Position numbers and translations under genes: made by a program
Notes under the pieces: generated by a model
Database searches by the model: none
Told to the model about the DNA's origin: nothing
The model's input: the letters and a program-made list of their open reading frames with translations, nothing else
Shown here: one piece after another, positions 36,455 to 50,667 of the stretch
Layout: every line of letters starts with the position of its first letter
How positions within the stretch are numbered: the first letter of the stretch is position 1
Source of the DNA: Chitinophaga sp. 180180018-3
GTDB taxonomy: Bacteria; Bacteroidota; Bacteroidia; Chitinophagales; Chitinophagaceae
Reading direction: 5' to 3'
Length of the DNA: 64,000 nucleotides
NCBI RefSeq assembly: GCF_037893185.1
Contig: NZ_CP140772.1
Coordinates: 2,852,001 to 2,916,000, forward strand

Positions 36455-37132
36455 ATGCAAATGAACAAGGCAATTTTATTTTCTGCAACTATTGCAGCAG
36501 CAATGGCATTTACTGCCTGTGGTGATGGTGGTAAAAAAGCAGGTGGCGACAGTGCGGCCACCGCATCCTCCTCATCTTCCAATGCATCGGCCCCGAAAGA
36601 CGACAAGTTAAGCGGATTTATGTTAGGCGGTATCTATTTTATCAATGGATACGGTGGCCAGGCGGAAGTCAGCAAAATGATCACCAGCACAGAGAAAGCA
36701 GATATCATCAACGACTATAAACAACTGCTCGAATTCCCTTTCAAAACGGATGATGCAGCAGGCGCAAAAAATACACTGAAAGAGTGGTGGAGTATCAACG
36801 ATAAAGCTGGTCTGGAAAAGAACCTCGACGAGCTGACCAAAGGTAAACCCGACAGTAAGCACAGGGCATGGGATTACGCCCGCCTGGTGAACAATGCCTG
36901 CATGGGTTATGCAGCAGGATATCTGACGAAGGAAGAAGCAGAAAAATACGTAGCTGCTGCTTTACCACTCGCCCGCAAGGACTACAAAACCTGGGACGAT
37001 TACTTCGCCGACTGGATGGAAGGCCGCAAAGCATGGGGTGGTGATGAAAGCCATGCAAAGGAATTTGAAGATCTTTCTAAGAGCATTACCAAAGGAGATC
37101 ATAATATTTATCAGATATTGCCGCTGAATTAA
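36455..37132 (+). CDS. Lipoprotein with DUF1266-like domain
   Basis: This 225-residue protein starts at 36455 or two codons later. The lipobox is AFTACGDG, followed by a low-complexity Ser/Ala/Lys linker (residues 30-50). The rest resembles DUF1266: WSINDKAGLEKNLDEL, AWDYARLVNNACMGYAAGYLTKEEA, and YKTWDDYFADWMEGRKAW. That domain pattern of Trp and Tyr in helices is known from uncharacterised proteins, mainly cytosolic ones, so a lipoprotein form is less usual. A promoter precedes it and a strong terminator follows, so it is monocistronic. The function is unknown. Confidence 0.78.
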   Translation: MQMNKAILFSATIAAAMAFTACGDGGKKAGGDSAATASSSSSNASAPKDDKLSGFMLGGIYFINGYGGQAEVSKMITSTEKADIINDYKQLLEFPFKTDDAAGAKNTLKEWWSINDKAGLEKNLDELTKGKPDSKHRAWDYARLVNNACMGYAAGYLTKEEAEKYVAAALPLARKDYKTWDDYFADWMEGRKAWGGDESHAKEFEDLSKSITKGDHNIYQILPLN

Positions 37133-37159: not shown

Positions 37160-37191
37160 GGCCGTGCCGCATTGGTGGTGCGGCCTTTTTT
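37160..37191 (+). terminator. Rho-independent terminator
   Basis: GGCCGTGCCGC pairs with GTGCGGCC across a short loop (with alternative registers, the core being GCCGCA/TGCGGC) and runs into T6. It lies just after the DUF1266-like gene. Confidence 0.75.
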
Positions 37192-37394: not shown

Positions 37395-37988
37395 ATGTTA
37401 TTCGGGGGTAACCAGCCATACAGGGAAGCAGAATTACTGCAACGGCTTGCCATCGCAGATGAAGGTGCTTTTTCTATCGTTTTCAGAGAATACTATGCTG
37501 TTTTATGTGCCTTTGCACAAAAAATTATCCAAACGGCTGCCGATCCGGAAGACCTGGTCAATGAAGTGTTTTTAAGATTGTGGAACAGGAGCGAGGTGTT
37601 TGAAGATGCCAGGCACCTGAAGGATTTTTTGTATAAATCTACCCGCAACGCCTGTTTTGATGCCCTCAAACGTGCTACCCACAGCAAAGAGCGACAGGCA
37701 GTTTTCCTGGAATCCCAGGACGCCTGGGAAACCGCCACTGATCTGGAAATGATCCGCATGGAAGTGTTCAATGAACTCTATCGTGAAATCAGCCAGTTAC
37801 CGGAGCAATGCGGTAAAATTATACGTATGGGGTATATTGAGGGTTTAAAGAATGAAGAAATTGCCCGCCAACTGGGATTATCTGTACAAACGGTGAAGAA
37901 CCAGAAAACGAGGGGCGTAATGTTGTTGAAACACCGTCTGCCACCCGAAATTTTCATATTGCTCCTGCTGGTATCTGCGCATTCCTGA
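37395..37988 (+). CDS. ECF sigma factor (FecI-like) of the MutS-containing locus
   Basis: This 197-residue ECF sigma factor has region 2 at about 20-80 (FSIVFREYYAVLCAFAQKI, DPEDLVNEVFLRLWNRSEVF) and region 4 at about 130-180 (LPEQCGKIIRMGYIEGLKNEEIARQLGLSVQTVKNQKTRGVMLLK). Its FecR partner starts 66 nt downstream and the STN-type SusC follows that, giving the complete cell-surface signalling set. The hydrophobic C-terminal tail is common in Bacteroidota homologues. It probably controls the operon through 50390. Confidence 0.93.
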   Translation: MLFGGNQPYREAELLQRLAIADEGAFSIVFREYYAVLCAFAQKIIQTAADPEDLVNEVFLRLWNRSEVFEDARHLKDFLYKSTRNACFDALKRATHSKERQAVFLESQDAWETATDLEMIRMEVFNELYREISQLPEQCGKIIRMGYIEGLKNEEIARQLGLSVQTVKNQKTRGVMLLKHRLPPEIFILLLLVSAHS

Positions 37989-38054
37989 TTTTTTTTTAAG
38001 GGGTTTGGTACTATCCTGATATCATGTCGTATTAATAGAAAGTACAGTGCTATT

Positions 38055-39272
38055 ATGGAGGAACCAACATCCGATGCCCTTTATATAGCGGGGCTTCTCA
38101 GCAAGCATTTAAAGGGAACTTTGACTGCAGAAGAATCTTCGCAGTTACATGCCTGGATAGCCGGTAGTGAACAACGTCGCCAATTATGGGAAGACATTAA
38201 TAATACGGAAATCCAGCAGGCAGGTGTAAAGCAGATCGCCCGGTATAATGAAAACGAAGCGCTGGAACGTTTCCTGGCTAACCATGCACCTAAGGAACCA
38301 CCGGCATCCCCCAAACGTGTTTATTTCCTGCAGCCATGGAAATGGATGGCTGCTGCAGTGGCTGTTATATTCATTGTTGTGGCTGGTTACTGGTTCCATA
38401 CTCAACAACAACATTCTCCCGGCATAGCGCATCATGTTCCGGTAAGTGACATTGCACCGGGAAAAAACGGCGCCATATTGAAATTATCTGATGGCTCCAC
38501 CATCGCACTGGATAGCCTGTCGAACGGAGTGGTTGCCACGCAGAACGGCGCCAGGATTGTACTGGACAATGGCGCACTGGTATACGACCCGGACAAAAGC
38601 AAAAGCAAGGAGATTGCCTACAATATTATTACGACCCCAAATGGTCGCCAGTTCCGGTTAAGCTTGCCGGATGGTACACAGGTGTGGTTGAATGCTGCCA
38701 GTTCTATTCGCTATCCCACTGTATTTGATGGTAAGCACCGGAATGTGGAGATCACCGGGGAAGTTTATTTTGAAGTGGCTCCGGATACCCGTATGCCATT
38801 TGAGGTAACCGTGTTGAATAATGCACGTATCGAAGTACTGGGCACCCATTTTAATGTAAACGCTTACGGGAATGAAGAAATGCAGCATACCACCCTGCTG
38901 GAAGGTGCTGTGAAAGTAATATCCCTGAAAGAACATGCCTCCGCGCTTTACCGCAATGGTATTGTACTCCGGCCAGGGCAACAATTACAAATGTCCGAAA
39001 CTCCCGCCATTATTAACCATGCAGATATAGACAAAATCATGGCCTGGAAAAACGGGCTCTTTGATTTCAATGGAATGGATGTGAAATATGCCATGAAACA
39101 GATTGCACGATGGTACGATGTAGAAATCGTATACAAAGGGGAAGTACCTGATATTAAATTTTATGGAAAAATCAGCAGAAATATAAGCCTGGCGGGCCTT
39201 ATCAAAGGACTGAACAATACAGGTGTGCATTTGCACATCGAAGAAGGCAAAAGACTGGTAGTAACAAAATAA
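38055..39272 (+). CDS. FecR-family anti-sigma factor
   Basis: This is a 405-residue protein. The cytoplasmic N-terminal part (1-93) is followed by a membrane helix at about 94-114 (PWKWMAAAVAVIFIVVAGYWF), a FecR domain (about 190-300: YNIITTPNGRQFRLSLPDGTQVWLNAASSIRYP, ITGEVYFEV, IEVLGTHFNVNAY) and a C-terminal DUF4974 module (FDFNGMDVKYAMKQIARWYDVEIVY). It pairs with the sigma factor just upstream and the STN domain of SusC downstream. Length and motifs are typical of Bacteroidota. Confidence 0.95.
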   Translation: MEEPTSDALYIAGLLSKHLKGTLTAEESSQLHAWIAGSEQRRQLWEDINNTEIQQAGVKQIARYNENEALERFLANHAPKEPPASPKRVYFLQPWKWMAAAVAVIFIVVAGYWFHTQQQHSPGIAHHVPVSDIAPGKNGAILKLSDGSTIALDSLSNGVVATQNGARIVLDNGALVYDPDKSKSKEIAYNIITTPNGRQFRLSLPDGTQVWLNAASSIRYPTVFDGKHRNVEITGEVYFEVAPDTRMPFEVTVLNNARIEVLGTHFNVNAYGNEEMQHTTLLEGAVKVISLKEHASALYRNGIVLRPGQQLQMSETPAIINHADIDKIMAWKNGLFDFNGMDVKYAMKQIARWYDVEIVYKGEVPDIKFYGKISRNISLAGLIKGLNNTGVHLHIEEGKRLVVTK

Positions 39273-39317
39273 GCATCATTTAAAAAAACAGATTGTCAAA
39301 CAGGTTGGTCGAAAAAA

Positions 39318-39347
39318 AGCCGGAAGCAGTTGGAGCTGCTCCCGGCT
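39318..39347 (+). other. Stem-loop between fecR and susC
   Basis: AGCCGGAAGCAG (39318-39329) pairs with CTGCTCCCGGCT (39336-39347) at 11 of 12 positions. No U-tract follows immediately. It lies in the 141-nt gap before SusC and could act as an RNA-stability, processing or partial-attenuation element in the signalling operon. Confidence 0.6.
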
Positions 39348-39413
39348 GGTAGTCGGCTAAACTTAAAATTTCGGTGTAACGAATTTTTTATCAACCAAAC
39401 CACAACCAAATTT

Positions 39414-42400
39414 ATGCAAAAAATCGCTCATGTAGAACGAAAGGGATGTCTATTGCCGGTCCCGATCCAAATATTGCGGATTATGAGAATTACTACCTTC
39501 TTTCTTTTCGCGTCCCTACTGCACGTTTCCGCAAAATCTTTATCCCAGGCGGTCACTATTTCCGGGAAGGATATGCCACTGACAAAAATATTTGATGCAG
39601 TATACAAGCAAACCGGCTTCGTGGTATTCAGCAACGACCGGTTAATGGAACGCGCCATTCCTGTCACCATTAACGCTAAAGAAATCCCGCTGCAGGATTT
39701 CCTGGAGAACGTATTCAAAAACCAGCCATTGACTTTTTCCATCGACAGTAAAACAATTTTTCTTGCTGAAAAACCTTACCAGTATGAGCATACAATGTTG
39801 TATGATTCTACGGTGGTACCCTTGCTGAAAGGAAAGATCCTCGATTCAACCGGTTTGCCTGTACCTGATGTGACCGTGGTGGTACGTAACACCAAACTGG
39901 TGGCGGTTACAGACATCCAGGGAGATTTCGTTTTTACAAATGTACCGCGGAATGCCACGCTGGTAGCCACCAATATTGCCTACCAGCGAAGAGAATTGAA
40001 GCTGGAAGGAAGGAGTGTGGTGACCATACGGCTCTACGCAGAAGTGAAAAAACTGAACGAAGTACAGGTAGTGGTCAATACCGGGTATCAGTCGCTGCCC
40101 AAAGAAAGGGCTACCGGCTCATTCGGCATCGTCACGGGCAAACAGCTGGCGCAGGTACCGGTGGTGAGCATACTGGAGCGGTTACAGGGCATGGTACCCG
40201 GCGTGGATATTTCTACCAGAACCACTGCCGGCAAAAGCCGTAACGCCTCCGTAACGATCCGTGGTTTGTCGACCATCAAAAGCGAATACACAAAAGTAAG
40301 CATGGATCCGCTGCTGGTAATAGACGGATTCCCTTCCCAGGTATCTATCGCCAATGGCGCACTGGATCTGCTTAACCCGGACGATATAGAACAGATTACT
40401 TTTCTGAAAGATGCAGCTGCTGCTTCTATCTGGGGCATCCAGGCTGCCAATGGTGTAATTGTGGTGGTTACAAAGAAAGGCACACGTAATAGTAAGCCGG
40501 TGTTTAGCTTTTCCACTACCATGGGCACCAGCAACAGACCCAGCCTGGGTTACGGCGAAATGATGTCGGTGCCGCAATACATCGACCTGGAAAAAGAACT
40601 GTTGGGAAAAGGAAGATATACAGACCCGGTTCCGCGTAGTACGCCCGGAAGTTATTATCCGGAAAATAACAGCCAGGTGCAGGCCATCTTTTTCCGGCAG
40701 AAGCGCGGAGAAATAACAGAAGCGCAAATGAACGCGCAACTGGCAGCATTGGGCGCTATGGATAACCGCTCACAGATGGAGAAGTACATGATCCAGTCGC
40801 CCACTACCCAACAATATAATCTCTCTGTTTCCGGTGGGGGGGTAAATAGTTCTTATTATTTGTCAGGTTATTTTTATAAAGAAGACCGGGTTTACAGAAG
40901 TAATACCAACAAGGGATATTCTCTGAAAGCGGGTAATACTTCCAGTTTATTCAATGGCCGTGTTACAATAGCTACTGATCTGACTTTTGGGAATACGAGA
41001 GATAAGATCAATAACGCCGCCGTAAAGGCCATGAGCGTTGGTTCCGGAGGTATGCGACCGTACGATATGCTCAAAGACGACGCCGGCAATACGATCTATT
41101 ATGATCTGCTGACCATTCCATCAACCGCCAGGTACCTTGAAAGCAAAGGATATCTTCCGTTCCGCTATTCACCGCTCGACGAGTTGAAATATTCCAATAC
41201 GTATAATACCGCTAATAATGTGGCATTGAATCTGGCCGTGAATGGCAATATCACTTCCTGGTTAGGGGTTAATATTTCCGGTAATGTAGGCCGTATGTTT
41301 ACAGAAAACGAGCAGTATTGGGAGCCAGATAGCTACGACGCCAGGATGTTGGTGAATAAGGCAACCAGTATTAGCCAAACCGGCGCCCGTGTATATGGCG
41401 TACCTCCCGGTGGCAGGCTGGATCTCAGCAATGGCCAGGGAAAAAGTTATAACCTGCGCGGACAGATCAATGTAAATAAAAACTGGAAAAACAGACATCA
41501 GCTGAATGTGCTGATAGGTAATGAAATCCGCGAATCTTACAGCAAAGGCAGCGGAGAGTTGCGCTATGGTTATGATAAGTCCATCAATGCTTTCCGTAGC
41601 GTGAATCCTTTTACCGGATATAAAGATATCTATGGATCAACACAATCGATCGGCCCCACCAGCAGGCCGGTTACTGAAAGTACCACCCGGTCGCTGTCGT
41701 ACTATGCCAACGGATCCTATACCTTCGATAATAAATATACGGTTTCAGGAAGCGCCCGTTTTGATGATTATAATTTATTGGGTGTTGAACGGCGTAAGCG
41801 CGCCATTCCATTGTGGTCCGGTGGTTTGAAATGGAATATCAGCAAAGAAGAGTTCCTGGGCAATATTAAGTGGATAGACCAGCTGTCCGCACGTTTCACT
41901 TATGGCTTTAGTGGAAATGCGCCACAGGGCTATGCTCCCGTTACTACTATTAATATACTGGGCGCAGATTACTATACTAACTATACATATGGTATTATTG
42001 ACAAACCGGCAATGGCAAACCTGGGCTGGGAAAAGACGAGGATGATCAACTGGGGCCTCGATTTTTCTTTCTTTAAAAACAGGCTGTTCGGGTCTGCGGA
42101 ATATTATAAAAAGCATACGACAGATATCATCTGGCAATTGCCGATTAATGGTACTTATGGTTTTACATCTACCTTATTCAATACCGCTAACCTGGAAGGC
42201 CATGGGGTAGACCTGGGAATCAATGTAGTGCCTGTCTGGAGCCGGAACTGGAAATGGACGGCCACTATCAATATGTCTTACAACACGAATATCATCAAAG
42301 ACATACGTTTCGAAAGGCCTACTACCTATTTTGCGCCAGAGATGCTTTATTCAGGTTATCCAACCGATTACCTGTTTACCTATGCCTGGGCAGGACTGGA

Positions 42401-43019
42401 TAATACTGGTCAGGCGTTGATTTATAACGGCAACGACCACACGAAAAAATATGCTGTATCGGAGTTTCCTTATGAAAATGCGCGTGTGTATGCCGGCCGG
42501 ACTACCTCTCCCTGGTTTGGAAGTTTCAGCCATTCTGTACAATACAAGGGCTTTGACCTCAATGTACAGTTCCAGTGCGCTTTTGGCGGTGTTTTCCTGA
42601 AGCCATCCCTCCAGGACCTGGGATATAGTAATAATCTTTTTGCAGGAAGAAACGGTGACCTGGCCAATCGTTGGAGAAAGCCGGGCGATGAGGCTTTTAC
42701 CAATGTGCCGGGGTTGGCATTTGGGGCCAATACTAATTTCTACACCAGCAGTGCACGATACAGGGAATCAGATTTACTGGTAAGAAGTCGCAGTAATATC
42801 AAATTGCAACAGGTAATGTTGTCATATACTATTCCTGCTGCCTTACTGGGTAAGGCCGGTCTGAAGAGCGTAACCGTTTCCGCGCTGGCCCGCAACCTGG
42901 GTATGATCTGGGCAGCGAATAAAGAAAAGCTTGATCCTGATTATCTCTACGTTACCGGGAACAACTATCAGCTTCCTCCGTTAACCAATTACTCTTTCAG
43001 AGTGGCACTGAGTTTCTAA
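39414..43019 (+). CDS. SusC/RagA TonB-dependent transporter with STN domain (MutS-linked locus)
   Basis: The frame opens at 39330, but the ATG at 39414 (MQKIAHVERK) is the likelier start because the upstream part would encode the stem-loop at 39318. This gives 1201 residues with a delayed signal peptide (MRITTFFLFASLLHVSAKS). An STN domain follows (PLTKIFDAVYKQTGFVVFSN), then a carboxypeptidase-like domain (LKGKILDSTGLPVPDVTVVV), the plug (ILERLQGMVPGVDIS, IEQITFLKDAAAASIWGIQAANGVIVVVT) and a barrel ending in Phe (SFRVALSF). No glycosidase is nearby, so the imported ligand is unknown. It is the uptake and sensing end of the ABC/MutS locus. Confidence 0.95.
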   Translation: MQKIAHVERKGCLLPVPIQILRIMRITTFFLFASLLHVSAKSLSQAVTISGKDMPLTKIFDAVYKQTGFVVFSNDRLMERAIPVTINAKEIPLQDFLENVFKNQPLTFSIDSKTIFLAEKPYQYEHTMLYDSTVVPLLKGKILDSTGLPVPDVTVVVRNTKLVAVTDIQGDFVFTNVPRNATLVATNIAYQRRELKLEGRSVVTIRLYAEVKKLNEVQVVVNTGYQSLPKERATGSFGIVTGKQLAQVPVVSILERLQGMVPGVDISTRTTAGKSRNASVTIRGLSTIKSEYTKVSMDPLLVIDGFPSQVSIANGALDLLNPDDIEQITFLKDAAAASIWGIQAANGVIVVVTKKGTRNSKPVFSFSTTMGTSNRPSLGYGEMMSVPQYIDLEKELLGKGRYTDPVPRSTPGSYYPENNSQVQAIFFRQKRGEITEAQMNAQLAALGAMDNRSQMEKYMIQSPTTQQYNLSVSGGGVNSSYYLSGYFYKEDRVYRSNTNKGYSLKAGNTSSLFNGRVTIATDLTFGNTRDKINNAAVKAMSVGSGGMRPYDMLKDDAGNTIYYDLLTIPSTARYLESKGYLPFRYSPLDELKYSNTYNTANNVALNLAVNGNITSWLGVNISGNVGRMFTENEQYWEPDSYDARMLVNKATSISQTGARVYGVPPGGRLDLSNGQGKSYNLRGQINVNKNWKNRHQLNVLIGNEIRESYSKGSGELRYGYDKSINAFRSVNPFTGYKDIYGSTQSIGPTSRPVTESTTRSLSYYANGSYTFDNKYTVSGSARFDDYNLLGVERRKRAIPLWSGGLKWNISKEEFLGNIKWIDQLSARFTYGFSGNAPQGYAPVTTINILGADYYTNYTYGIIDKPAMANLGWEKTRMINWGLDFSFFKNRLFGSAEYYKKHTTDIIWQLPINGTYGFTSTLFNTANLEGHGVDLGINVVPVWSRNWKWTATINMSYNTNIIKDIRFERPTTYFAPEMLYSGYPTDYLFTYAWAGLDNTGQALIYNGNDHTKKYAVSEFPYENARVYAGRTTSPWFGSFSHSVQYKGFDLNVQFQCAFGGVFLKPSLQDLGYSNNLFAGRNGDLANRWRKPGDEAFTNVPGLAFGANTNFYTSSARYRESDLLVRSRSNIKLQQVMLSYTIPAALLGKAGLKSVTVSALARNLGMIWAANKEKLDPDYLYVTGNNYQLPPLTNYSFRVALSF

Positions 43020-43037
43020 ATCATTAAACTACAAAGT

Positions 43038-44423
43038 ATGCGTCCATATAAAATAGTTGTTGCTTTTTTATTAGTTACTGTTGGTATAACTTCCTGCCGT
43101 AAATACGTGGAAGACGTGCCCATACAGGGTCAGCGGGTGTTGGTATATACAGATGATTACCGCGCGCTGATGAATGCCAGCGGCGACAGGCAGGAAGTGG
43201 CATTTGGACTGGCTCCATTGATGAGCTCCGATGATGTGGATCTGATTGCTCCGGAGATCCAGAATAATTTTAAAACGAATGTGGTGCAGTCGGCCATTTA
43301 TACCTGGCATAAACCCTTTTACACGGATCTTAATCAGGACAACGACTGGAATGTGCTCTATGCTGCCATGTATACCTATAACGTAGTAATAGATGGTGTA
43401 ATGGACAGCAAAGGAGGAGACCAGTTGTTAAAGCAAACGATCTTATCGGAAGCGCTGATGCATAGGGCCTTCACTTATTTTAGCCTGGTTAACCTGTATG
43501 GAAAGCAGTATGATGCTGCCACTGCTGAAACAGACCTGGGAGTGCCTTTAATGCTCAAAGCTGCGCTTTTCGTGAACTTAAAAAGACCATCGGTAAAACA
43601 GGTGTATGAGCAGGTATTGAAGGATATCAGGGTTGCTATTCCGATCCTGCCGGTTAAACAGGACATAAATTTCAGACCGAATAAGGCATCGGCTTATGCA
43701 TTGTTGTCCAAAGTATATCTCAATATGCGGGATTTCGCTAATGCCGCTGCTTTTGCCGATAGCACGCTGGACTTATCCGGCACGCTGTACGACTATAACA
43801 TCGCTTTTAACGGGGGGAATTTTATTTTCCCTTCCCAGTTTGAAGATAAGCAGATCCTGTTGCGGAAAGTTCCCCGCATCACCTTTGGCGCGCCGCAGTT
43901 AAGTCAGGCGATGCTCGATCTGCTGGGTACCAAAGATTTGCGCTATCGGCTTTTTGTGAGATCCGGTAATTCTTTCCGGCCTGCATTTACAGGCCAGGGT
44001 TTCTGGTCGCGCGAGAATTATTCCGGTTCGCCGGATAAGTCGGCAGTAGGCCTCTCTGTAAATGAAACCTGGCTGATAAAAGCAGAATGCCTTGCCCGCG
44101 CAGGTAAAAAAGACGAAGCTGTAAATATGCTTAATACACTCCGCAAGTTACGTTTCCTGCCCGCGGATTATGCGGACATTAGCGCCGCCACAGCAGCGGA
44201 AGCATTGCAGCTGGTAGTGGATGAACGCCGCCGTGAATTCTTTGGCTCAGGCCTGCGATGGTTCGATCAGCGCCGGCTGAATAAAGATCCGCAGTTCGCT
44301 AAAACTGTCAGCCGGGCATTTAACGGTAACACCTATACGCTGACGCCTAACAGCAATAACTATGTATTTCCACTAGCCAATATTCTCATTGCCCAGAATC
44401 CGGAAATAGAACAAAACCCATAG
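43038..44423 (+). CDS. SusD/RagB-family lipoprotein (MutS-linked locus)
   Basis: This 461-residue protein has lipobox Cys about 20 (VGITSCRKY). Features are the SusD helices ILSEALMHRAFTYFSLVNLYGKQYD, the TPR region ASAYALLSKVYLNMRDFANAAAFADSTL and the C-terminal NETWLIKAECLARAGKKDEAVNMLNTLRKLR and DERRREFFGSGLRWFDQRRL. It is somewhat shorter than the average family member and more divergent than the mannan SusD, in keeping with a non-glycan substrate. It lies 18 nt after SusC and 41 nt before the ABC ATPase gene. Confidence 0.93.
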   Translation: MRPYKIVVAFLLVTVGITSCRKYVEDVPIQGQRVLVYTDDYRALMNASGDRQEVAFGLAPLMSSDDVDLIAPEIQNNFKTNVVQSAIYTWHKPFYTDLNQDNDWNVLYAAMYTYNVVIDGVMDSKGGDQLLKQTILSEALMHRAFTYFSLVNLYGKQYDAATAETDLGVPLMLKAALFVNLKRPSVKQVYEQVLKDIRVAIPILPVKQDINFRPNKASAYALLSKVYLNMRDFANAAAFADSTLDLSGTLYDYNIAFNGGNFIFPSQFEDKQILLRKVPRITFGAPQLSQAMLDLLGTKDLRYRLFVRSGNSFRPAFTGQGFWSRENYSGSPDKSAVGLSVNETWLIKAECLARAGKKDEAVNMLNTLRKLRFLPADYADISAATAAEALQLVVDERRREFFGSGLRWFDQRRLNKDPQFAKTVSRAFNGNTYTLTPNSNNYVFPLANILIAQNPEIEQNP

Positions 44424-44464
44424 TAAAAGACAGGTTTACATCTACCAAAAAAATTATAAAATAA

Positions 44465-45394
44465 ATGGAAAGTATTGTCAGAATTGAAAAGTTATCCCAC
44501 AGATACAGTACCTCCTGGGCCATCCGCGATATTAACATGGAGATTAGTCCAACAGGTATTGTAGGGTTGCTCGGCTCAAACGGTGCAGGAAAATCTACCA
44601 CCATGAATATTGTATGTGGGGCGCTGAACCAGACAGAAGGCGATGTTTACATCAATGGCATTAACACGAAAGAACATCCGCAGCAGGCAAAAAGAGAAAT
44701 CGGCTTTCTCCCGCAGAATCCTCCGCTATACATGGATCTGACGGTAGACGAATACCTCCATTATTGCGCCGGTCTGCGGCACCTGCCAAAAGACAATATG
44801 AAACCCGCTATAAAGGAAGCGAAAGAACGTTGTGGTATTGATCATTTTAGTAAAAGGCTGATCCGGAACCTCTCAGGAGGTTACCGGCAGCGCGTAGGCA
44901 TCGCGCAGGCGATTGTACACCGCCCCAGGCTGGTAGTGCTGGATGAACCTACCAACGGCCTGGATCCTAATCAGATCATAGAGGTACGGTCGCTGATCAA
45001 AGATATTGCCCGCGACAGAGCCGTTATTTTTTCTTCGCATATTCTTTCCGAAGTACAGATACTCTGTAAAGAAATCAGGATGATCGAAAATGGAAGGATT
45101 GTTTTCTCAGATACGATGGAAACCTTCAATAACTACGTGGAGCCACACAGCGTGCTGGTACACCTGGAGAACCCGCCGGTGGAAGCGGAGCTGGTGAAAA
45201 TCAACGGCGTCACCAAAGTAGATTTTCTTACTGAAAGACAGCTGCGCATTTATTTTTCCGGTGAACAGGACATTGCCGAAAGGATTGTTGCAGCATCTGT
45301 ACATAACGGCTGGCGGCTTCGGGAAATCAGTCTTGATAAAAGTGCGCTCGACGAAATATTTAAGCAGTTATCCCATCCATCATCAAAACAATAA
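44465..45394 (+). CDS. ABC transporter ATPase (GldA-like)
   Basis: This is a 309-residue ATPase with Walker A at 37-45 (GSNGAGKST), Q-loop (FLPQNPPLY), signature LSGGYRQR at 136-143 and Walker B with Asp160-Glu161 (LVVLDEPTNGLDP). The C-terminal extension of about 80 residues is like that of GldA and other drug/antibiotic-type exporters of the ABC-2 class. The permease gene starts 7 nt after its stop. Together they form an export or membrane-remodelling transporter. Gliding GldA is the nearest named relative I can see, but the context (SusC/SusD, MutS-like) is not that of gliding genes. Confidence 0.93.
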   Translation: MESIVRIEKLSHRYSTSWAIRDINMEISPTGIVGLLGSNGAGKSTTMNIVCGALNQTEGDVYINGINTKEHPQQAKREIGFLPQNPPLYMDLTVDEYLHYCAGLRHLPKDNMKPAIKEAKERCGIDHFSKRLIRNLSGGYRQRVGIAQAIVHRPRLVVLDEPTNGLDPNQIIEVRSLIKDIARDRAVIFSSHILSEVQILCKEIRMIENGRIVFSDTMETFNNYVEPHSVLVHLENPPVEAELVKINGVTKVDFLTERQLRIYFSGEQDIAERIVAASVHNGWRLREISLDKSALDEIFKQLSHPSSKQ

Positions 45395-45401
45395 CCGATT
45401 A

Positions 45402-47702
45402 ATGAAGACGATATTAAGAATAGCCAAAACAGAGTTACGTACCCTGTTTTACTCACCCATTGCATGGTTTTTAATGATTGTATTCCTCATCCAATGTGGC
45501 GTAATATACCTGGGTGTACTGGAAGCAATAACACGGGAACAGGATGCCGGTGGAAAGTTTTTTGGCAGCGTGATAGAATATGTTTTTCTGAGTAACCAGG
45601 GATTATTCGGAGTGGTGTTGCGCAACTTATACCTGTACATCCCGTTGTTGACGATGGGATTGATCAGCCGGGAAATCAGCAGTGGTACCATCAGGCTGTT
45701 GTATTCTTCGCCGATCCGGGTAAGAGAAATTGTGTTGGGGAAATTTCTGGCCATGATGATCTACAGTCTTTTGCTGGTGGGGATTCTGGCTATCTTTATT
45801 GTTTCCAGTCTGTACCAGGTAGTATCTCCTGATACCGGTATGCTGATGAGTGCGCTGCTGGGAATATACCTGTTGCTTTGTGCTTACTCGGCTATTGGAT
45901 TATTTATGTCGTGCCTGACCACTTACCAGGTAGTGGCGGCGGTATGTACATTTGTGATGATCGGTTTGTTGTCGTACGTTGGCACACTCTGGCAGGATAT
46001 TGCATTTGTGCGGAACCTGACTTATTTCCTGTCTATTTCCGGTCGTACCGGAAAAATGCTGACGGGGCTTATTACATCAAAAGATGTCATCTATTTCCTC
46101 GCTATCGTTTATCTTTTTCTCGGGCTCAGTATCTATAAAATAAAAGCAGGCATGGAATCCAGGCCTGCGATGATAAAAGTGGGGCGATATGCTTTGGTAG
46201 TTGTATCCACGCTGGTTATCGGTTATTTCAGCTCTATTCCTTCACTGGTGGGCTATTATGATGCCACCCGTGCAAAGGCGAGAACACTGACACCCAATGC
46301 ACAGAAAATTATAAAGGAGTTGGGAGATGAACCACTAGAAGTGACCGCTTATAACAATCTGATGGGGCGCTACTGGGATCTGGGTAGTCCTGACTCGTAC
46401 AACCGCAATCTGGCACGTTGGGAACCCTATACACGATTCAAACATAATATTGAATTGAAAACGGTTTTATATTATGATTCGGCTTATGACAACCCTGGCA
46501 TGTTCCGGTTTTATCCTGGTAAAACATTAGCACAAGTGGCGAAGCAATATGCTGATAGTAAGGATCTTTCGATGGACCAGTTTAAAACGCCCGCCGAAAT
46601 ACGGAAGGTTGTAGACCTGAGGCCGGAGCTGAATCGCTATGTGATGCAGCTGAAATATAAAGGAAGAACTACTTTTCTGCGGGTGTTCGACGACAACATG
46701 CAATGGCCGGGTGAAACGGAGGTGTCGGCAGCATTTAAACGATTGCTGCACGCGCGGATGCCGAAAATAATTTTCCTGTCAGGACATCTGGAGAGAAATA
46801 TAAATAAGATGGGAGACAGGGAATACAAGGTGCTCACCAACCTGACAACTTTTCGTAATTCACTCCTGAACCAGGGATTTGATGTAGATACGCTCTCATT
46901 GGATACCCAACAAATTCCGACGGATATCTCCGCTTTGGTGCTCGCAGATCCTAAGGTAGCACTGACCGCCACAGATATAGAAAAGTTACAGCAATACGTT
47001 AACAATGGCGGTAACCTGCTGGTAGCAGGAGAGCCGGGCAAACAAGCGATATTGAATCCTTTTCTACGGCAGCTGGGAGTACAGCTGATGGATGGCATAT
47101 TGGTACAAACCAGCAAAGATCTGCAACCTGAGCTGGTAACGCCTTATCTCACTGCTACCGCTGCCTCATTTTATCCTGCGTTGGTTCATGCCCATCATGA
47201 TAGTGCGATGGTGTCGATGCCACGTGCAACAGCACTTTCTTTTACCGATACCGGTGCATTTACGATTAAGCCATTGCTGACAACAAATGTAAAAACCTGC
47301 TGGCTGAAAAAAGATAATCTCGTTACCGATTCTGCGGAGGTTGTTTTTTCGCCGGAGAATGGAGATGAGCGTAAACCTTTTGCCACCGCAGTAGCCCTGA
47401 CGCGTAAGGTGAATAATAAAGAGCAGCGTATCATCGTAACCGGTGATGCGGATTTTATGGGGAATGCCGAGCTGCAGCGTTTTAATATGAGGGCGGCGAA
47501 TTTTGTATTCAACACTGCCTTGTTTAGCTGGCTCAGTTATGGAGAATTTCCGATCGATAGCACCCGTCCTAAGCCGGAGGATACCGCCGTGTTGCTAACA
47601 AAGGGGCAGGTGAAATTTTTACGGATCATTTATGTGTGGGTGTTGCCGGGGCTTTTGCTCGCCTTTGGCGCCATATTGCTTATCAGGAGGAAAAGGAAAT
47701 AA
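45402..47702 (+). CDS. ABC-2 permease fused to a GldG-like auxiliary domain
   Basis: The correct start is the ATG at 45402 (MKTILRIAKT), giving 766 residues; the longer frame overlaps the ATPase gene. The N-terminal 240 residues hold about six membrane helices of the ABC-2/GldF type (SPIAWFLMIVFLIQCGVIYL, LYIPLLTMGLISREISSGTIRLLYSSPI). A GldG-like auxiliary domain follows (about 285-735: TLTPNAQKIIKELGDEPLEVTAYNN, KIIFLSGHLERN, ADPKVALTATDIEKLQQYVNNGGNLLVAGEPG), then a final helix and RRKRK tail. GldF and GldG are usually separate; here they are fused. It works with the ATPase encoded upstream. Confidence 0.9.
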   Translation: MKTILRIAKTELRTLFYSPIAWFLMIVFLIQCGVIYLGVLEAITREQDAGGKFFGSVIEYVFLSNQGLFGVVLRNLYLYIPLLTMGLISREISSGTIRLLYSSPIRVREIVLGKFLAMMIYSLLLVGILAIFIVSSLYQVVSPDTGMLMSALLGIYLLLCAYSAIGLFMSCLTTYQVVAAVCTFVMIGLLSYVGTLWQDIAFVRNLTYFLSISGRTGKMLTGLITSKDVIYFLAIVYLFLGLSIYKIKAGMESRPAMIKVGRYALVVVSTLVIGYFSSIPSLVGYYDATRAKARTLTPNAQKIIKELGDEPLEVTAYNNLMGRYWDLGSPDSYNRNLARWEPYTRFKHNIELKTVLYYDSAYDNPGMFRFYPGKTLAQVAKQYADSKDLSMDQFKTPAEIRKVVDLRPELNRYVMQLKYKGRTTFLRVFDDNMQWPGETEVSAAFKRLLHARMPKIIFLSGHLERNINKMGDREYKVLTNLTTFRNSLLNQGFDVDTLSLDTQQIPTDISALVLADPKVALTATDIEKLQQYVNNGGNLLVAGEPGKQAILNPFLRQLGVQLMDGILVQTSKDLQPELVTPYLTATAASFYPALVHAHHDSAMVSMPRATALSFTDTGAFTIKPLLTTNVKTCWLKKDNLVTDSAEVVFSPENGDERKPFATAVALTRKVNNKEQRIIVTGDADFMGNAELQRFNMRAANFVFNTALFSWLSYGEFPIDSTRPKPEDTAVLLTKGQVKFLRIIYVWVLPGLLLAFGAILLIRRKRK

Positions 47703-47721
47703 TTTTTTAATTTTTTGTAAG

Positions 47722-49062
47722 ATGATTTTTAATACAGATAAGCAAACCCTTACTGATCTTAATATACTGGGAAAACCAGGTGCTGACTCGGTGTATACTG
47801 TTTTCAGCGATACCAGTACACAAGGCGGTGCGGCTATACTGGAAAATATGTTCAGGTACCCGCTGGCGGATATGGCCGCAATCAATAGTAGAAGCAGCAA
47901 GATCCGGTTCTTTCAGTCTGTTAATGCTGGTTTCCCTTTCAGAAGCGGTTTGTTTGATGTGATAGAAGTTTACCTGGCTATGCAGGACGACCGGACCCGT
48001 TTAGCGCCGGAGGATAACACGCTGGCGAGAAAACTCAATCATCTTATAGCGGCCGATAATAATTATAAAGCTATCAGCGACGGTATCCGATCGCTGATAG
48101 AAATGCTGCATATGCTTCAGGGGTTCTTTATTCATATGGCCACAATATCTGACGATAACCCTTACCAGGCGGATATGGAGGAAATGATAAACATCCTCCG
48201 ATATCCGGCCCTGGAACCGGTATTAAAGGAGCAGGCAGGCAATAAGCTGTCTTACGCCAAAGTAGCGGAATACGACCAGTTGCTGCGGTTCCGGTTCAGG
48301 AATGAGCTTAGCAGGATATTATCCCTCATCTATCATTTAGACGTGTACGTTACAGTGGCACGGGTAGCTACAGAAAGGAAATTTGTATTCCCGGTGGCGT
48401 TGGATGCGGGAACTCATCAGATGCGGCTGGAGGGTGTTTACCATCCCCTGGTAAAAAATGCGGTGGCCAATAGTATCCATATCACGCCGGAGAACAACGT
48501 TATTTTTTTAACCGGCGCTAATATGGCGGGGAAGTCCACCTTTATGAAATCGTTGGGTATCGCCATGTTCCTGGCGCATATGGGCTTTCCTGTTGCCGCT
48601 GCAAAAATGGAGTTTGCCGTAAGGGAAGGTATTTATACCACCATTAATTTGCCGGATGATCTTTCTTCCGGCAGCAGCCATTTTTATACGGAGGTATTGC
48701 GGATAAAAACAATTGCCAGGGAACTAGCCAAAGGAAAGAGCCTGTTCCTCATCTTTGATGAACTTTTCCGGGGCACCAATGTGAAAGATGCTTATGAAGG
48801 CACGGTGGCGGTGACCGCCGCTTTTGCAGAAAGAGAGCATTGCATCTTTGTAATTTCTACTCATATAACAGAGGCTGGAGAGGCGCTGAAAGCGCAATGC
48901 AATAACATCCGGTTTCTATTTCTTCCTACAAAAATGGAAAATAATAGACCCGTTTATACGTATCAGTTAGCCGAAGGAATTACCACCGACAGGCACGGCA
49001 TGGTTATTATCGAAAACGAGGGAATCCTGGATATCATCAGCAAAAAAAATAAGAACGCATGA
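47722..49062 (+). CDS. MutS-like ATPase A (clamp/lever and ATPase domains only)
   Basis: The start at 47722 (MIFNTDKQTL) gives 446 residues; the frame upstream to 47632 lies inside the permease gene. The N-terminal part resembles MutS domain III (SVYTVFSDTSTQGGAAILENMFRYPLADMAAINSR). The ATPase has Walker A at 265-273 (GANMAGKST), the MutS ST-motif region (SSGSSHFYTEVLR) and Walker B with Asp346-Glu347 (LIFDELFRGTNVKDAYEG). The mismatch-binding domain I and connector II are absent, so ordinary mismatch repair is unlikely. It overlaps the next, paralogous gene by 4 nt, implying translational coupling and possibly a heterodimer. Its role in a SusCD/ABC operon is unknown. Confidence 0.88.
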   Translation: MIFNTDKQTLTDLNILGKPGADSVYTVFSDTSTQGGAAILENMFRYPLADMAAINSRSSKIRFFQSVNAGFPFRSGLFDVIEVYLAMQDDRTRLAPEDNTLARKLNHLIAADNNYKAISDGIRSLIEMLHMLQGFFIHMATISDDNPYQADMEEMINILRYPALEPVLKEQAGNKLSYAKVAEYDQLLRFRFRNELSRILSLIYHLDVYVTVARVATERKFVFPVALDAGTHQMRLEGVYHPLVKNAVANSIHITPENNVIFLTGANMAGKSTFMKSLGIAMFLAHMGFPVAAAKMEFAVREGIYTTINLPDDLSSGSSHFYTEVLRIKTIARELAKGKSLFLIFDELFRGTNVKDAYEGTVAVTAAFAEREHCIFVISTHITEAGEALKAQCNNIRFLFLPTKMENNRPVYTYQLAEGITTDRHGMVIIENEGILDIISKKNKNA

Positions 49063-50390
49063 GTTTTTACGCAGACAAACAAACGCTCGATGATTTGAAT
49101 ATTTCCGGCAGGTACAACAGCAAATCCATTTATCGTATATTCGATCACGTTATTACCGATGGCGGCAGAAAGTTGCTGGAGCATATGTTCCGGCATCCAC
49201 TGGCAGATGATAAGGCTATCAATGAACGCAGCTGCATATTTCAGTACTTTGGCCGGCATGCAGTAGCATTTCCGTTCAGTAATGAAGCATTCAGCGTGGC
49301 AGAAAGTTATCTTAGCTCCGGCGTTAGCGGTAGTATACCGGCAACAGCCTGGAATATTGTATCCGGGAGGTTGCTTAAAACGATGATACGCGACACCCGC
49401 TATGACCTGCTGATAGCCGGGGTGAGTAAAACGATTGCTTTACTGAGAGCCTTCAGGGATTTTATTTACAAATTAGAAGAACAGGAAGCCTATAACCCTA
49501 TCCAGGGGTGCTTTGAACAAGTCCGGGGAATTTTCAATGATCATCGGCTGCAATGGCTCAACGACACGGTTGATTTAACGCGGATGCCGCTGCGGAAGCT
49601 TATACAATATGATTACCAGTTAAGAACAGGATGTCAGGAAGAAATGAAGATCCTGATAAACATTATCTACCAGCTGGATGTATATATTTCTGTAGGCACA
49701 GTGGCACGAACAAAGCAGTTCTGTTATGCAAAGGCGCTGCCCAGGTATAAAAATGTCATCAACATAGATGGGTTGTTTCATCCCTCATTGGAAAAACCAG
49801 TATCAAATCACATTTTATTCGAACAAACAAGTAACGTTGCTTTTCTTACCGGCGCGAATATGGCAGGAAAATCTACCTTTATGAAGTCGTTCGGTATTGC
49901 CGTTTATCTTTCCCATATGGGCTTTCCGGTAGCGGCAGAAAAAATGGAGTTTTCCGTGAAAGATGGTCTTTTTTCCACGATCAACGTACCCGATAGCCTC
50001 GAGCATGGTTATAGTCACTTTTATGCAGAAGTATTGCGGGTGAAAAGCGTGGCGGAGCAGGTGGGGCAGTCAAAGGATCTGGTAGTAATATTCGATGAGC
50101 TATTTAAGGGCACTAATGTGAAGGATGCATTTGATGCCACACTGGCGATTACAGCTGCTTTTTCAGCGCATACCAATTGCTTTTTTATTATTTCCTCACA
50201 TATTATCGAGGTAGGGGAAGCCCTGAAAGAACAGGGTGGCAGCTACCAGTTTCTATACCTGCCAACCATCATGGAGGGCAACATTCCCAGGTACACCTAT
50301 CAGTTGAAAGCGGGTATCACCGCAGATCGCCACGGGATGATCATTATTGAAAACGAAGGATTGATAGGGCTGATCCGTAAGCGGGAATAA
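49059..50390 (+). CDS. MutS-like ATPase B (paralogue of A)
   Basis: This 443-residue paralogue of the preceding gene has the same layout: a domain III-like start (SIYRIFDHVITDGGRKLLEHMFRHPLADDKAINER), Walker A at 265-273 (GANMAGKST), EHGYSHFYAEVLRVKS, Walker B VIFDELFKGTNVKDAFDA and a late SSHIIEVGEAL. The C-terminus ITADRHGMIIIENEGLIGLI matches ATPase A (ITTDRHGMVIIENEGILDII). It starts in the stop codon of A (ATGA overlap). Both keep all ATPase motifs, so neither is dead. I infer that A and B form a heterodimeric clamp acting on DNA or another polymer. It is the last gene of the locus. Confidence 0.88.
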   Translation: MSFYADKQTLDDLNISGRYNSKSIYRIFDHVITDGGRKLLEHMFRHPLADDKAINERSCIFQYFGRHAVAFPFSNEAFSVAESYLSSGVSGSIPATAWNIVSGRLLKTMIRDTRYDLLIAGVSKTIALLRAFRDFIYKLEEQEAYNPIQGCFEQVRGIFNDHRLQWLNDTVDLTRMPLRKLIQYDYQLRTGCQEEMKILINIIYQLDVYISVGTVARTKQFCYAKALPRYKNVINIDGLFHPSLEKPVSNHILFEQTSNVAFLTGANMAGKSTFMKSFGIAVYLSHMGFPVAAEKMEFSVKDGLFSTINVPDSLEHGYSHFYAEVLRVKSVAEQVGQSKDLVVIFDELFKGTNVKDAFDATLAITAAFSAHTNCFFIISSHIIEVGEALKEQGGSYQFLYLPTIMEGNIPRYTYQLKAGITADRHGMIIIENEGLIGLIRKRE

Positions 50391-50448: not shown

Positions 50449-50667
50449 ATGTCTACAAAAATTACAGTAAATAACAATGGTTCACTGAAACTGGAAGGTG
50501 AATTCGAAATCGTTGATAAAAACGGAAATCCTTACGACCTCGGTGGCCGGGAAGCCGTTAGCATCTGCCGCTGCGGTTTATCAGCCAATAAGCCCTTCTG
50601 CGATGGATCTCATAAGGGTCATTTTGAGCACGAAGCAATCGCCTTTGCATTGCCTCCGAAAAAATAA
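50449..50667 (+). CDS. CDGSH iron-sulfur domain protein
   Basis: This 72-residue protein contains the CDGSH cluster motif CRCGLSANKPFCDGSH (C-x-C ... C-D-G-x-H), which binds a [2Fe-2S] cluster through three Cys and one His, as in mitoNEET. It has no membrane helix, so it is a cytosolic bacterial type. The roles of these small proteins are not well defined; redox sensing and cluster transfer have been proposed. It stands between the MutS-like pair and a TonB receptor, with its own -7 element and a following palindrome. Confidence 0.93.
   Translation: MSTKITVNNNGSLKLEGEFEIVDKNGNPYDLGGREAVSICRCGLSANKPFCDGSHKGHFEHEAIAFALPPKK

Follow-up and report, generated by a model that had tools for sequence, protein, structure and literature searches.

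SusC/SusD (SusCD) utilization loci and the RagAB importer, the GldA-GldF-GldG system of gliding flavobacteria, and several MutS-family ATPases are the described systems that come closest to the locus analyzed here. MutS is a textbook DNA-repair fold, and the role of GldA/F/G-type transporters is, to our knowledge, not clear even for gliding. Among the titles and abstracts listed in searches of open-access PubMed Central (PMC) papers, none linked MutS-like proteins to SusCD, and no paper searched there held MutS, SusC, and SusD as whole words; searches for KamC, a MutS-like protein, and for DUF4843/PKD returned nothing relevant-looking. We analyzed a 64,000-nt stretch of Chitinophaga sp. 180180018-3 (contig NZ_CP140772.1, positions 2,852,001 to 2,916,000, forward strand; hereafter, the window). 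At window positions 37395 to 50390, eight genes in one direction encode an extracytoplasmic function (ECF) sigma factor, FecR, SusC, SusD, a GldA-like ATP-binding cassette (ABC) ATPase, a GldF-GldG fusion (GldFG), and two MutS-like ATPases (MutSA and MutSB, together MutSAB). We tentatively read these genes as a ligand-induced SusCD-type uptake operon whose likeliest cargo is peptides or protein fragments and which brings its own machinery for the inner membrane and the cytoplasm, MutSAB included; the balance for and against this reading is close to even.

Relatives were collected by a MutS alignment scan of 84,980 species-level genomes, which gave at least 558 confirmed relatives. The best 80, all Bacteroidota by title, were kept, and 58 of these had full flanks (at least 9 kb upstream and at least 8 kb downstream). 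The ABC ATPase and GldFG were encoded on the same strand within the fetched stretch in 54 of the 58 full-flank loci. L028, L030, L044, and L058 have a same-strand GldFG immediately past the fetched end, so that it is near the MutS pair in 58 of 58 (the L030 contig being placed by coordinates alone). The same holds for L060, a short locus, and the idea drawn from these five loci that the MutS pair sometimes occurs without the ABC ATPase was rejected. All five have a permuted operon, with mutSA-mutSB-sigma-fecR-susC-susD first and GldFG at the far end. SusC and SusD were found on the same strand in 55 of the 58 loci, or 56 counting L082, where a previously unmatched 514-aa protein is SusD by Pfam; in two loci from Bacteroidetes metagenome-assembled genomes (MAGs), L071 and L096, the stretch has ABC-GldFG-MutSA-MutSB but no SusC/SusD. 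Median gaps were −4 nt for mutSA-mutSB (62 pairs), 6 nt for gldFG-mutSA (69 pairs), 9 nt for abc-gldFG (67 pairs), 11 nt for susC-susD (66 pairs), 64.5 nt for susD-abc (40 pairs), and 163 nt for fecR-susC (59 pairs), the last being the largest among core gene pairs. The co-occurrence of the MutS pair with SusC/SusD, the ABC ATPase, and the fused permease elsewhere in Bacteroidota, which the initial annotation had proposed to look for, is thus strongly borne out.

The source genome (8.13 Mb, single contig) has 13 MutS_V matches and four full-length GldFG genes, a fifth GldFG match being partial (55.6 bits). All four GldFG operons are ordered sigma, FecR, SusC, SusD, other genes where present, ABC, GldFG, MutSA, MutSB. 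Identity to the window copy was 24–28% for SusC (two compared) and SusD (three compared), 59–73% for the ABC ATPase, 45–49% for GldFG, and 52–59% for MutSA. Because four diverged copies share one genome and relatives with matching gene order recur in many other species, a random neighborhood was rejected, and the unit proposed at the outset is a real, recurrent system. Three more single MutS_V proteins of other subfamilies are encoded away from ABC-GldFG in this genome (L009:9951-11279, L011:5485-6768, and L014:8264-10042), and at the 1.15-Mb copy, a further sigma-fecR-SusC-SusD set directly follows MutSB (L017:568-7426).

Independent genome draws separated the parts of the operon. Among 395 genomes drawn across the phylum, GldFG scored at least 600 bits in 11, and the next best genome reached 107 (two best candidates scored per genome). 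The MutS pair was present in three of the 11 (G000, G099, and G391), with a best MutS match elsewhere of 326 bits (four candidates per genome). The other eight had no MutS pair with all candidates scored, and MutS as a constant part of GldFG operons was therefore rejected; GldFG loci in these eight genomes came with sigma, FecR, SusC, SusD, and ABC genes and, in six, an M16 peptidase. Of 147 Chitinophagaceae genomes, 16 have GldFG and 15 have the MutS pair, all 15 being among the 16 (Fisher P = 1.4e-19, on genomes that are not independent), and in all 15 a listed MutS match lay no more than about 12 kb from a listed GldFG, on the same strand. By the counts from both draws, ABC-GldFG has the broader distribution, and MutSAB is an addition to it that, within these draws, occurred only where GldFG was also present.

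Some genomes hold many copies. Pseudoflavitalea rhizosphaerae (G398, 6.7 Mb) has 36 GldFG and 51 MutS matches, counting fragments and weak matches, and a Chitinophagaceae MAG (G399) has 31 and 36, respectively. Twenty-three of the 28 P. rhizosphaerae regions read hold SusC, SusD, ABC, GldFG, and MutS (a few cut at contig ends), and L159 and L160 jointly hold one more, permuted, for about 24 operons. In the 18 of these operons that contain the full six genes, identity averaged 29% for SusC, 31% for SusD, 41% for GldFG, 56% for MutSA, 56% for MutSB, and 64% for the ABC ATPase. With SusC/SusD this divergent (a mean identity of about 30%) and ABC and MutS this conserved (53–66%), the set has the look of varied receptors coupled to a less variable machine.

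Distance-matrix (mirror-tree) correlations over 40 loci addressed which part the MutS pair tracks. The tight pairs were SusC-SusD (r = 0.97), ABC-GldFG (0.91), and MutSA-MutSB (0.84). MutS correlated with ABC/GldFG at 0.63–0.69, with SusC/SusD at 0.49–0.57, and with FecR at 0.58–0.60, while SusC correlated with ABC, GldFG, and MutS at 0.51–0.59. The partial correlation of MutSA with GldFG given SusC was 0.54, and that of MutSA with SusC given GldFG was 0.28. Taken together with the presence of MutSAB only beside GldFG in the draws, the partial correlations suggest that MutSAB serves the ABC-GldFG transporter more than the receptor.

The transporter itself resembles the gliding proteins from a distance. 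The ABC ATPase (44465–45394, + strand; ABC_tran) has GldA as its best match, and the adjoining gene (45402–47702, +; ABC2_membrane_2 and ABC_transp_aux) encodes a GldF-like ABC-2 permease fused to a GldG-like (GIFT-type) domain with a C-terminal hydrophobic segment. The equivalogs of gliding GldA, GldF, and GldG were not reached (TIGR03522, 266.1 bits for a cutoff of 402.6; TIGR03518, 94.5 for 288.5; TIGR03521, 22.9 for 389.85). Hydrophobic segments of GldFG lie within residues 12–283, followed by none for about 450 residues and then one at 742–760. The GldG part has weak matches to IFT52 and OST48, on which we read it as a GIFT domain, and a search of solved structures with the GldFG profile returned weak IFT52/Osm-6 matches alone (E, 0.001–0.003). 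Eight operons contain two GldFG genes each (L146, L151, L161, L162, L169, L175, L177, and L178), which suggests a heterodimeric permease.

The ABC-2 exporter class of this permease also fits a system for resistance rather than feeding, in which SusCD and FecR would sense antimicrobial peptides or lipopeptides, the exporter would clear the inner membrane, and MutSAB would regulate or power the pump. The ABC ATPase scores to DrrA (187.5 bits) and to a lantibiotic-protection family (172.9 bits), both under cutoff, the peptidases of relatives could destroy peptides, and about 24 operons in one bacterium would suit such a role. GldA is nevertheless the better match for the ATPase, and importing a poison through SusC would be counter-intuitive; we consider resistance unlikely.

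MutSA (47722–49062, +) and MutSB (49059–50390, +) overlap by 4 nt and are paralogous, each with a MutS_V match and a MutS_III match under cutoff. In profile searches, neither protein matched MutS domain I, II, or IV; a control MutS from the same genome had II, III, IV, and V in the fragment read, domain I falling outside that fragment. Both proteins begin after the position of domain I and are without domains II and IV (the clamp), the distance between two anchor blocks being shorter by 82 residues in MutSA, and they keep the ATPase motifs. In the aligned sets, all 52 A and all 49 B proteins contain GANMAGKST; DELF-R-GTN is present in 48 of the 52 A proteins and DELF-K-GTN in all 49 B proteins. 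The MutS fold is thus accompanied by its motifs, the fold having been predicted for MutSA alone. With domains II and IV missing and a start past domain I, mismatch binding by either protein is unlikely, a role in DNA repair or DNA uptake was likewise judged unlikely from domain content, and the initial description of a MutS-type clamp pair loses ground in its DNA sense.

MutSA and MutSB form a single polypeptide in 16 of the 80 loci, always with A first, and the C-terminal half of the fusion is closer to B in 15 of the 16 (the exception being L090). Given these natural fusions, MutSA and MutSB probably act as a heterodimer with two ATP sites. A predicted structure of the fused A-B protein (predicted template-modeling score, 0.58; 16 sequences) was too weak to judge the dimer interface and was set aside. 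Five Pedobacter operons (L067, L079, L081, L083, and L089) contain fused MutSA-MutSB, M16, and a second GldFG and are trailed by a fatty-acid hydroxylase-like gene. In an Odoribacteraceae MAG, a POT-family (PTR2) transporter gene directly precedes fused MutSA-MutSB (L033:8049-9710, assigned to L033 by its length); this locus ends 1 kb further on.

Structural neighbors of the predicted MutSA include MutS2, among them a MutS2-disome structure, and the pair matches the KamC equivalog NF052383 at 118.5 and 99.4 bits (cutoff, 300) and is also under the MutS2 cutoffs. Such likenesses would suit a cytoplasmic protein-remodeling factor that is unrelated to transport and merely shares the operon, comparable to KamC (by name a lysine 5,6-aminomutase reactivase) or to ribosome-bound MutS2. 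The pair, however, was never seen without GldFG in the 147 family genomes at the threshold used and tracks GldFG more than SusC, and we regard this explanation as rather improbable.

The first four genes encode a TIGR02985-family ECF sigma factor (37395–37988, +; 136.4 bits, cutoff 126.4), a FecR-type regulator (38055–39272, +; FecR and FecR_C domains, hydrophobic stretch at residues 91–116), a SusC/RagA-type TonB-dependent transporter (39414–43019, +; TIGR04056, 544.4 bits; plug and CarbopepD_reg_2), and a SusD/RagB-type lipoprotein (43038–44423, +; SusD-like_3 and SusD_RagB). The STN match on SusC is weak (26.9 bits for a Pfam cutoff of 28.4). The adjoining sigma, FecR, and TonB-dependent transporter genes make a FecIRA-like arrangement, and the adjoining susC and susD make a SusCD uptake locus resembling a polysaccharide utilization locus. 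In L161, L162, L169, and L172, a second sigma-like gene (235–246 aa) separates the SusD-side gene from that of the ABC ATPase, with sigma-70 domains confirmed in L162 alone.

The initial annotation noted the absence of any degradative enzyme and concluded that this was not a standard nutrient locus. The absence is true of the window copy and false for the family, as the other three copies in the genome encode peptidases: M16 in one, S41 in another, and TSP, M1, and Mx1-like (Mx1 below cutoff) in the third, which also has two TlpA-like thioredoxin-fold proteins. Reference-type peptidases (M16, S41, TSP, M1, and Mx1) occur in the contiguous operon of 29 of the 55 full-flank loci examined, TlpA-type proteins in eight, and one or the other in 31. 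S9 peptidases and Met-zincins are also among the neighbors, as are a tricorn-type protease and an M64 peptidase. Peptidases this frequent among relatives weaken the conclusion against a nutrient locus, and their presence in about half of the relatives' operons hints at peptides or proteins as the ligand, which is our best guess.

Uptake of glycans or glycopeptides would be another use of the same parts, with the GIFT domain of GldFG binding sugar and the peptidases only exposing it. Sugar binding by GIFT domains is proposed in passages of PMC7226087, and glycan import is common for SusCD loci. We scanned 69 otherwise unclassified operon proteins, taken from 117 of 121 loci (L024, L049, L050, and L058 being left out as duplicates of regions read elsewhere), and, in addition, one L050 neighbor. 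The commonest families among the 69 were DUF4843 (nine), PKD_2 (six), and FA_hydroxylase (five), and no glycoside hydrolase family was found among them; a profile search of the eight window genes likewise found no carbohydrate-active enzyme. A GH16 glycosidase (L050) and a PNGase_F-II_N match (L163) near operons speak for glycans, an explanation to which we give little credence.

Anti-phage defense or a secreted-peptide system resembling ribosomally synthesized and post-translationally modified peptides (RiPPs) is more doubtful still. Some peptide export clusters have M16 peptidases beside an ABC exporter, a resemblance that counts for it. PADLOC-DB 2.0.0, however, had no match for seven of the eight window proteins, including MutS and GldFG, which leaves the defense role first named as one possibility for the locus without backing from these proteins; the ABC ATPase had eight matches, mad3 scoring highest at 95.2 bits, which we attribute to a general likeness among ATPases. 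No RiPP modification enzyme was among the families in the 69 neighbors, in a scan of open reading frames (ORFs) of at least 70 aa. Least likely of all is nucleic-acid uptake or processing, with SusC importing DNA and MutSAB acting on it, as neither MutS protein matched domain I, II, or IV, of which the control MutS showed II and IV, and no nuclease or competence family was among the neighbors scanned.

In the peptide-uptake reading that we prefer, ligand capture by SusCD and a relay through FecR and the ECF sigma factor would, judging from the families, turn the operon on. In roughly half of the relatives, peptidases from the same operon would cut the imported molecule down; the GldA-type ABC ATPase and the GldF-GldG fusion would handle this molecule at the inner membrane, with the GldG part predicted to face the periplasm. 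A MutSAB heterodimer, which would have two ATP sites but lack a DNA clamp, would serve the ABC-GldFG machine and not the receptor, probably as ATP-driven tweezers at the transporter's cytoplasmic side or on emerging cargo.

Several observations weigh against this reading. The counts from the best 80 of at least 558 loci describe near relatives, and in the phylum draw eight of the 11 GldFG genomes are without the pair, one of them (G002) having a single distant MutS match of 257.7 bits. All 21 gene pairs exceed 500 permutations, which indicates a shared species-tree background in the mirror-tree correlations, and MutS-FecR distances correlate given GldFG (0.43 and 0.42), so a tie of MutSAB to the regulatory pair is possible. 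The window copy has no peptidase, and a contiguous operon with a reference-type peptidase was seen in only three of the 28 P. rhizosphaerae regions; a few further peptidases lie nearby there (S41 in L165, Met-zincin in L163, and tricorn-type in L174). The PNGase_F-II_N match in L163 and the L050 glycosidase, the latter beyond the operon after a second SusCD pair, count here as well. The ligand, the direction of transport, and contact between MutS and the transporter are features that we only infer.

The gene order, strand, and gaps first given for the locus (66, 141, 18, 41, 7, and 19 nt, then the overlap of 4) were reproduced by taking internal ATG starts. Since the ORF list allows longer upstream starts for SusC, GldFG, and MutSA, we infer the start positions of these three. 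A terminator-like hairpin ahead of the sigma gene (37166–37184, +) is a possible left boundary; it follows a DUF1266 protein gene just upstream of the operon (36455–37132, +). The initial annotation would have been undermined by separate promoters and terminators between SusD and the ABC ATPase. No terminator-like site is listed in the 41-nt gap, and the promoter-like matches there (+ strand, 44435–44462, 10/12; − strand, 44481–44453, 11/12) come without a regional excess (23 observed, 26.6 expected). A small CDGSH iron-sulfur protein gene follows MutSB (50449–50667, +).

The genetic linkage of a MutS pair lacking the DNA-clamp parts with an ABC transporter and a TonB-dependent receptor suggests a repair fold turned to a task at the membrane. 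If confirmed, this would give the MutS ATPase a new role and offer a way into the function of GldA/F/G-type transporters, and it would mark a large class of undescribed Bacteroidota uptake or response loci. A bolder and doubtful possibility is a transport machine of a new class. In it, a heterodimer of MutS type, hydrolyzing ATP independently of DNA, would act as an additional motor, or as a gate, for the ABC-GIFT transporter and would move large peptides or proteins across the inner membrane after their capture by the many diversified SusCD receptors.

Compared with SusCD utilization loci and the RagAB importer, the window system shares the SusC/SusD tandem, which it combines with an ECF sigma/FecR pair encoded locally, but adds a dedicated ABC-GldFG and MutSAB, and the enzymes co-encoded in relatives are mostly peptidases, with no glycosidase family among the 69 neighbors. 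With the gliding GldA-GldF-GldG system of flavobacteria it has in common an ATPase, an ABC-2 permease, and a GldG/GIFT-type domain, whereas here GldF and GldG are fused, the scores fall below all three equivalog cutoffs, and the genes lie within SusCD operons. KamC and MutS2 are, like the window pair, MutS-family ATPases, and are named for roles other than mismatch repair; the pair falls below both of their cutoffs and consists of two paralogues of about 440 residues each. MutS and MSH2-MSH6 share with it the core III and ATPase V fold, the ATPase motifs, and a likely heterodimer of paralogues, as in the eukaryotic MSH pairs, whereas MutSA and MutSB match none of domains I, II, and IV and were found only beside GldFG in the sampled genomes.

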